From Pseudomonadota bacterium (lineage in GTDB: Bacteria; Pseudomonadota; Gammaproteobacteria; Burkholderiales; Chitinibacteraceae): 64,000 nt of DNA. Of this stretch, positions 10,336 through 11,892 are shown in pieces. Numbering within the stretch: position 1 is the first letter of the stretch; each line of letters starts with the position of its first letter. Where the stretch lies: contig JAGTRM010000020.1 in NCBI GenBank assembly GCA_018261735.1, positions 1 through 64,000 on the forward strand, read 5' to 3'. The notes beneath the pieces were generated by a model. That model was not told the DNA's origin. It saw nothing but the letters and a program-made list of their open reading frames with translations, and made no database searches. The position numbers were made by a program, and so were the translations under genes.

Positions 10336-11319
10336 TCAAAAAAGCAAAGAGAACCACTCACCCCACACCGACACATGCTTCAAAGCCCAAAGCAAGCCGC
10401 TGAGCGTGAAGAAAGACGCGGTCGTGGTGACCAGCAACGCCGGAGCGCTGAAATCTTCTCCGCCGTAGGTCTGGGCCAGGATCGGATAGATGCTCATCAT
10501 CGGCATGGCGGCGAGCAGCACGACGGCCATGCGCAGCGACGGATCCAGCGCCGGCAGGCCCAGCAGGGGCAGTGCGAACAGGGCGAGCAGCACGGCCAGC
10601 GGGTGGAACAACAGCTTGCCGGCCACGATCGGCGCCACGCGCGGCCCCATTCCCCGCATCGGCAGCCCGACCAGCGTGCCGCCAATCACGAACAGCGAAA
10701 GGGCGCTGCTGGCCGTTGCGAACAGGGTGACGCTGCGCGCCACAGGATCGGGCAGTTTCCCGTCCAGAACGGAGACCGTGAACCCGGCAAGCACGCCGAT
10801 GATCAAGGGGTTGGTGACGAGCCGTTTCAGCGCCGGGCCGATCTGACGCTGCCACGACCCCGCGTCGCCGCGCCCGCGTTCGGCCAGTGCCAGCAGCAGA
10901 GGCAGAATGACGATGTTTTCCACGATCATGTTAAGCGCCAGCGCCACGCCGGCAACGGGTGCCAGCGTCAGCAGCAGGATCGGGTAGCCGACAAAGCCGC
11001 TGTTCGGGCAGGTCATGCCCATCACGTAAACGATGCTGGTGGTCGGATTCAAACCGGCGAAGCGCCGGCACCAGCAATAGCCCAGGCCGACCACGGCCAG
11101 CGTGCCCGCCAGGTAGGCCAGCAGATAGCTGCCATTGAGAATCTCGCCGATCTGGCGCTGAGCCAGTGCGTTGAACAGCAAGGCAGGTAGCGCGAGGTTG
11201 ATCACGAACTTGCCGAACACGCGCATGTCCGCCTTGCTGAAGAGGCCAAAACGGGTTGCCAGGAAGCCGACCCCGATGGTGATGTAGATGGGACCGGTGA
11301 TCGCCAAAATATCAAGCAT
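10336..11319 (-). CDS. AEC family (auxin efflux carrier-like) permease
   Basis: A 327-residue integral membrane protein with about ten hydrophobic segments arranged in two halves, as in the AEC/malonate transporter family. The conserved segment GMTCPNSGFVGYPILL in the first half is characteristic (Asn-Ser-Gly-Phe-x-Gly-x-Pro). Characterised bacterial members carry malonate, malate or other small organic anions; the substrate here is unknown. The gene stands alone between the AKR gene and the repeat element, with no regulator next to it. Confidence 0.88.
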   Translation of the reverse strand: MLDILAITGPIYITIGVGFLATRFGLFSKADMRVFGKFVINLALPALLFNALAQRQIGEILNGSYLLAYLAGTLAVVGLGYCWCRRFAGLNPTTSIVYVMGMTCPNSGFVGYPILLLTLAPVAGVALALNMIVENIVILPLLLALAERGRGDAGSWQRQIGPALKRLVTNPLIIGVLAGFTVSVLDGKLPDPVARSVTLFATASSALSLFVIGGTLVGLPMRGMGPRVAPIVAGKLLFHPLAVLLALFALPLLGLPALDPSLRMAVVLLAAMPMMSIYPILAQTYGGEDFSAPALLVTTTASFFTLSGLLWALKHVSVWGEWFSLLF

Positions 11320-11396
11320 GGGCAGTCCTTGCGCAGCGCGGCAGGGCGGTGAGTATCTGGGGCATGGATTGTTGTGAGCCCTTCCTGTTTAGCTTA

Positions 11397-11543
11397 AGAG
11401 CCTATCTCAGTAGGCGAGCGAGCCAAAGCAGGTGGCAGGAGGGCGGAGCACAGGAACCGGAATGTACATGTGAGTACATGAGGATTCCGAGCACCGCCTG
11501 ACTGCCAGATGCGAAGGCGCAGCCGCCTAATGGGATAGGCTCT
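11397..11543. repeat. 147-bp MITE-like element with 20-bp terminal inverted repeats
   Basis: The ends 11397-11416 and 11524-11543 are inverted copies of each other, matching at 18 of 20 bases (core AGAGCCTATC). Inside, 11459-11490 folds into a nested hairpin (CGGAAT pairing with ATTCCG, and CATGT with ACATG). There is no coding capacity for a transposase, so it would need help in trans. The right end touches the yedF stop codon: TAG at 11542-11544 uses two bases of the element. No second copy was noticed in this window, and no clear target-site duplication is visible. Confidence 0.75.
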
Positions 11544-11892
11544 AAACCGTGATCACCTTGTCGGCCACGCCCTGCGCCTCGACTATCCGCAGCATGTTGC
11601 CGATCTCGCCCACTTCGACGCAATCCATCAAGCCGTAGTAGTCCAGGCAAGTGCGGCAGGCGATCAGCGGCACGCCGGTGGCGGCGAGTTCCCTCAATTC
11701 CGAAAGGCAGGGCGAGCCGGTGGCGACCAGCTTCACGCCGGCGGCATAGAACAGGATCGCCTGCGGGCGCTGGCCGAGTTCCAGCAGCGTGCGCAGGTAG
11801 TTGGTGGCGAGCTTGTAACGCAGCGCCTCGTCGGCGTGGCCCAGGCCATCGTGGTTGAAGACGATGGCGGTGCTGGCGAAATCGGTATTCAT
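11542..11892 (-). CDS. yedF: YedF/DsrE-like sulfurtransferase (selenium-associated)
   Basis: A DsrE/DsrF-like protein of about 116 residues starting MNTDFASTAIVFNHDGLG, with the conserved block LIACRTCLDYYGL near residue 80 whose cysteines could carry persulfide or selenide. DsrE-like domains next to selD are found in the YedF selenium-metabolism family, and here the gene follows selD by 10 bases on the same strand. GGGAG before the ATG at 11892 supports this start rather than the longer frame to 11922. The N-terminal TusA-like domain of full-length YedF is absent. The stop codon is formed at the edge of the repeat element. Confidence 0.8.
   Translation of the reverse strand: MNTDFASTAIVFNHDGLGHADEALRYKLATNYLRTLLELGQRPQAILFYAAGVKLVATGSPCLSELRELAATGVPLIACRTCLDYYGLMDCVEVGEIGNMLRIVEAQGVADKVITV

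Follow-up and report, generated by a model that had tools for sequence, protein, structure and literature searches.

The element at the 3′ end of yedF

The window, by which we mean the whole stretch of 64,000 nucleotides analyzed, comes from a Chitinibacteraceae genome that was placed in the same genus as Formivibrio citricus DSM 6150 (G002), and it contains a yedF-like gene whose 3′ end meets a short hairpin element (Table 1). When the target duplication is taken to define its limits, the two ends of the element agree at 17 of their first 20 positions. The element strand folds as one nested hairpin with a DNA energy of −46 kcal/mol, compared with −21.9 ± 2.9 kcal/mol for 200 shuffles, none of which (0/200) was as good (z −8.2). 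The covariance model R1 matched the element at 11399–11541 (128.4 bits, E 6e-35) and found this single copy in the window, a second match scoring 13 bits.

Table 1. Features at the junction of the hairpin element and yedF, in window coordinates.
Feature	Position	Strand	Remarks
Left target-site duplication copy, TAA	11395–11397		From sequence; TNA duplications family-wide
Hairpin element, 145 bp	11398–11542	+	Core AACCGG..GAGC on top strand; right end at yedF stop
Left terminal inverted repeat GAGCCTATCTCAGTAGG	11398–11414	+	From sequence
Right terminal inverted repeat GAGCCTATCCCATTAGG	11526–11542	−	15/17 identical to left repeat
Hairpin core AACCGGAATGTAC-n-GTACATGAGGATTCCGAGC	11455–11492	+	Common to elements with differing outer shells
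Right target duplication copy, TAA	11543–11545		Gives T and A of yedF stop
yedF-like gene	11542–11892	−	TAG stop 11544–11542 across right junction of element

MITEs are characterized, in the passages of PMC3733652 that concern them, as elements of 70–300 bp with terminal repeats, a strong hairpin and no coding capacity that lie near genes. By size (145 bp), coding (no long reading frame was found inside it) and ends (15/17 terminal bases identical) the present element is a MITE; it has TAA/TAA flanks as its target duplication, dispersed copies occur in its own genome, and yedF lacks the element in three relatives. It resembles MITEs such as ERIC, NEMIS/Correia and Nezha in size range, terminal repeats, hairpin, lack of coding and gene-adjacent position, but the family to which it belongs differs from these in having one core under unrelated shells, two duplication lengths and a directional docking on stop codons. 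The preliminary description of this locus had proposed a MITE-like mobile element without coding capacity, with an internal nested hairpin and with two mismatches in 20-bp inverted ends; the ends are present where it placed them, by the limits it used, and the other three points are borne out by the fold, the reading frames and the combination of copies, inverted repeats, target duplication and absence at yedF in relatives.

The same description had the element supply two of the three bases of the yedF stop codon, a count that arose because the boundary was set one base further out. The overlap with the TAG codon is real, but with the boundary set by the duplication only the G comes from the element and the T and A from the duplicated target. 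Joined by eye, the flanks read ...GTT TAA at the end of yedF, so that the yedF protein is unchanged; the stop codon before insertion would have been TAA, which insertion would have turned into TAG. The suggestion that insertion had reset the 3′ end of the gene is unsupported because the relatives without the element (G001, G002 and G011), whose yedF C-termini were compared, end yedF at the same last codon. A role of the hairpin as the yedF terminator fared no better, as no T-run follows it and no site of the intrinsic type (GC-rich hairpin plus T-run) was found in 11300–11700 (0 sites). Integron attC core sites have the form GTTRRRY/RYYYAAC; neither strand of the element contains this motif, and an attC identity was rejected. 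The element at 11398–11542 is a real MITE-type transposon, and its effect on yedF is ordinary.

Copies and breadth of the family

The search for other copies proposed at the outset was carried out, and BLAST with the element gave 39 matches in its own genome, of which 12 extend over 110 or more of the 147 bases; because of these copies, a chance origin of the inverted repeat is excluded. Among genomes searched as relatives, 17 of 41 (own included) gave matches. With R1 at E up to 1e-3, the number of copies was 29 in the own genome, 83 in F. citricus, 41 in genome G010, 35 in Xanthomonas hortorum and 64 in Chlorobium ferrooxidans, and at E up to 1e-6 39 of 114 genomes sampled from the class (own included) had at least one copy. 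Exact terminal repeats of the window type are rare in the class (2/369 genomes, own included). Used as a query, the window copy matched 2 of 72,556 plasmid records, 1 of 50,697 phage records (really a Salmonella chromosome contig) and 1 of 5426 E. coli genomes, while the Salmonella copy matched 5375 of the same 5426 genomes at a median of 5 places. The copy that follows yheS in Salmonella (114.9 bits) and those of E. coli between qseE and qseG (90.8 and 85.3 bits) are members of the family. One and the same element copy is also found where an efflux RND transporter gene ends, on dozens of plasmids from Citrobacter, Klebsiella and Enterobacter (L454 and similar loci).

The enterobacterial repeat of E. 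coli and Salmonella, possibly the one named RSA/BEE95 or MITEEc1, shares with the window copy the terminal repeat GAGCCTATCCCATTAGG, a 3-bp duplication (TTA in the enteric repeat), the core and, at Salmonella yheS, the stop-codon position. It differs in its diverged arms and core (70% identity to the window copy) and in its few copies per genome (median 5). The covariance model groups the element with repeats from Beta- and Gammaproteobacteria, Chlorobi, Salmonella and E. coli and with Xanthomonas sX9. The open-licence PubMed Central literature, searched by core letters, terminal-repeat letters and topic, yielded no account of the family as one.

A constant core under variable shells

Matches to the element were of two kinds, full-length ones and ones limited to the core within different outer arms, and a scan for the core pattern over the named genomes found at least 119 stretches in Beta- and Gammaproteobacteria and Chlorobi. 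Nearly all among the matches listed have a common architecture, in which a variable terminal repeat of ~17 bp is followed by a step resembling GTAGCGAG or GTCGCGAG, then by a variable stem, and finally by the core and the return side. The outer inverted repeats vary by lineage and the core is constant, the invariance of the core columns coming partly from the search pattern, outside which the terminal repeats and the core flanks lie. In an alignment of 50 sequences, compensatory changes on both sides were found in 32 of 44 pairs, 93.2% of cells were paired (71.1% after shuffling, no more than 42% when the structure was slid), and the terminal-repeat pairs covary throughout (17/17). A second hairpin module, CGCCCCGYAGGAAGYACCCTTGGGGTG, occurs in the arms of some copies (L012, L014, L019, L021, L025/L028 and L029), one of which, L012 in the own genome (C52:19676–19878), has one such module on each side of the core.

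The two strands of the element are not equivalent. The top strand, which is antisense to the docked gene, folds better (−88.9 vs −78.4 kcal/mol). On this strand G.U exceeded A.C in pairs common to both strands (64 vs 27), most strongly in pairs taken from the top-strand fold (125 vs 27), and also in outer arms paired by position (83 vs 59), with the sign reversing on pairs from the bottom-strand fold (64 vs 77); all of these counts treat cells as independent. Because they depend on the choice of pairs and reverse on the bottom-strand fold, the asymmetry in favor of the top strand is suggestive only. It fits poorly with a function of the bottom-strand RNA.

Target duplications and the search for a transposase

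Target duplications were examined in 123 named elements, of which 35 without detectable ends were omitted. Among the 88 left, 28 had a duplication, against 3 of 88 in a shifted control. The 3-bp duplications (17 elements; shifted control, 2) are all TNA and all belong to GA-ended elements, and the 4-bp duplications (11 elements; shifted control, 1) all belong to GG-ended ones; the same core therefore travels with two duplication lengths. A duplication was detected in 22 copies of F. citricus, and the target consensus of these is CTNAG, which is palindromic. A 3-bp TNA duplication is indicative of IS5/IS1031-type transposases, and with all 17 three-base duplications being TNA the transposase acting on these elements would probably be IS5-like.

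Such an enzyme was sought through two transposase families (PF01609 and PF13340) and through terminal-repeat scans, in assemblies some of which are drafts and may lack the parent. The own genome gave no match to PF01609 or PF13340, and a PF13340 search of 12 genomes gave no transposase with the element's ends. Terminal-repeat scans found no parent transposase in the own genome, no IS with these ends in eight genome entries (F. citricus twice, as G002 and G044) and no parent IS in three genomes reached via Xanthomonas and Dyella loci. The transposase with matching ends that the preliminary description had asked for was consequently not found in the genomes scanned, which counts against the explanation favored below; a parent IS of the family is expected to end in GAGCCTATCYCA, GAACCTGTTCACGATC or GGGCACCTCT. 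Two candidates were rejected, an IS of G010, for its unrelated ends (TAGATGGTGTCGTCACG), and long terminal-repeat pairs of X. hortorum, which enclose other hairpins or a nested IS. In strain jj2001 of the latter species, the terminal repeats GAGCGGCTAACAAAAC of loci L306–L317 flank 330–1700 bp that contain other long hairpins; two of these loci, L306 and L307, also have reading frames resembling IS5-type and IS110-type transposases, as read from their translations, nested between the repeats.

Docking of the right end on stop codons

The position of the elements relative to genes was analyzed with a hexamer gene caller in four genomes, using 133 elements (19 from the own genome, 45 from F. citricus, 23 from G010 and 46 from C. 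ferrooxidans) that remained from 148 model matches after 15 had been dropped (nine from other records and six outside 115–165 bases). Genes running into the right end stopped within −12 to +8 of the boundary in 71 of 85 cases, 49 of the 85 within ±1, as against 8 of 60 genes running into the left end (Fisher p 9e-18). An independent set of 83 named elements, in which docking was counted from longest ORFs with F. citricus and C. ferrooxidans left out, gave 19/30 on the right vs 6/38 on the left (p 1e-4), and six further genomes showed a weaker preference (18/37 vs 6/29, p 0.02). Docking was strong in G076 (right 8/9, left 2/8) and reversed in G110 (right 0/4, left 3/5), where the elements (L507–L513) have ends like ACAGGGTGTT. 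For comparison, the share of in-frame stops expected by chance among intergenic TNA sites flanked by C or G is 7–22% for the two orientations combined, in a null drawn from the loci around the elements rather than from whole genomes.

In Salmonella the yheS copy stands exactly on the stop codon, and in E. coli the copy at qseE follows the stop at a distance of six bases; a Klebsiella plasmid copy is docked by its left end. Where the duplication survives, the duplicated target is often the stop codon itself, so that docking at these sites reflects the site of insertion and not a later deletion. In C. ferrooxidans (L388–L427) the right end also lies near start codons, with 13 of 24 outgoing genes starting within 26 bases.

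Targeted insertion or selective retention

Taken together, we consider, with a probability of roughly 0.6, that the family is a non-autonomous, palindromic transposon of the MITE type with a constant core and changing ends, whose stop-docked copies have been kept according to their orientation. At yedF, insertion would be the work of a transposase that makes TNA duplications, in this case of a TAA overlapping the natural TAA stop, leaving the protein the same and the stop as TAG. Insertion would occur mainly into CTNAG-like sites, which often contain stop codons, and copies with their right end directly after a stop would be preferentially retained. The untranslated 3′ part of the gene's RNA would then begin with the right-docked hairpin, which may be tolerated there or may even be of some benefit, and selection would be the cause of the orientation bias.

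The evidence for retention comes from the age of the copies. Docked copies have a lower identity to their nearest copy in F. citricus (0.944 vs 0.965, p 0.04) and in C. ferrooxidans (0.873 vs 0.937, p 0.012) and were for this reason regarded as older; in these two of the four genomes the age difference favors retention that depends on orientation over insertion by targeting alone. Several observations weigh against it. Neither the own genome nor G010 shows the age trend, the younger halves are already biased when summed (31 right-docked and 5 left-docked of 69), left-end docking occurs in G110 and in the Klebsiella plasmid copy, and the better-folding, G.U-richer strand is antisense to the docked gene, unlike what a benefit borne by the mRNA would call for.

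The most serious competitor, which we hold to be unlikely but worth keeping in view, is that insertion is itself oriented and aimed at stops, the transposition complex sensing some asymmetric feature of gene 3′ ends (DNA, an R-loop, or the ending of transcription or translation). The precision of docking within ±1, the frequent identity of the docked stop with the duplicated target and the bias in the younger halves all speak for it. Against it stand the greater age of docked copies in two genomes, the modest bias among the 22 duplication-bearing F. citricus copies (9 right vs 3 left, with one locus on both sides), the reversal in G110 and the palindromic nature of the CTNAG consensus itself. 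Its boldest form, in which hairpin transposons spread across phyla would insert in an oriented and stop-codon-aimed manner, the duplicated target being the stop so that the host protein stays unaltered, appears somewhat less probable again. If it were true, stop-aimed insertion would be an inherent safe-site strategy, guided by gene ends and not by a fixed DNA sequence.

That the family is at bottom one of sRNA genes, sX9, spread as genes with the repeats incidental, seems improbable to us. The Rfam model of Xanthomonas sRNA sX9 (RF02228) was tested on seven loci from Xanthomonas and Dyella and matches each on the bottom strand, over the left arm and core, with 71–102 bits against a cut-off of 44, and one copy of the own genome reaches 48.4 bits; the window copy scores 31.4 bits, below that gathering cut-off. 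The model spans the left arm and core only and is filed as an sRNA gene, unlike the full element, in which target duplications and covarying terminal repeats are the marks of a transposon. Given these matches, sX9 in the tested Xanthomonas and Dyella genomes is part of a mobile element. A review (PMC9029176) lists sX9 among the most abundant sRNAs, an abundance that may be owed to the hairpin repeat family.

We give slightly less credit still to the idea that the element is a palindrome of the REP/REPIN type, mobilized by a RAYT tyrosine transposase. REPs occur near stop codons, and like REP/BIME sequences the present elements are palindromes behind genes. GTAG or CGTC-like tetranucleotides lie near the stem base in many family members, and passages of PMC3733652 report REP families in related groups. 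The likeness ends there, since the elements are 145 bp long and not 20–40 bp, have 17-bp terminal repeats outside the tetranucleotides and three- or four-base target duplications, and carry GTAG at both ends on the same strand, not inverted, in contrast to a 20–40 bp palindrome ending in GTAG or CGTC. An immobile origin, as a terminator or 3′-UTR hairpin that arose where it now stands, which the strong hairpin directly behind a stop codon might suggest, is already contradicted by the many near-identical dispersed copies with target duplications, besides the lack of a T-run and the three relatives in which yedF has no element, and is the least credible explanation of all.

Significance of the family

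Three things make the family unusual: a core that is conserved, a wide spread, and docking on stop codons. Its recognition as one family would join repeats that are now seen apart, namely a Xanthomonas "sRNA", an intergenic repeat found throughout E. coli and unnamed repeats of Neisseriales and green sulfur bacteria, and the filing of sX9 as an sRNA in its own right would have to be reviewed. A core that stays constant under changing terminal repeats raises the question of what that core does. Finally, docking on stops by one end makes testable the old question of whether small repeats come to lie at gene ends by aim or by survival.
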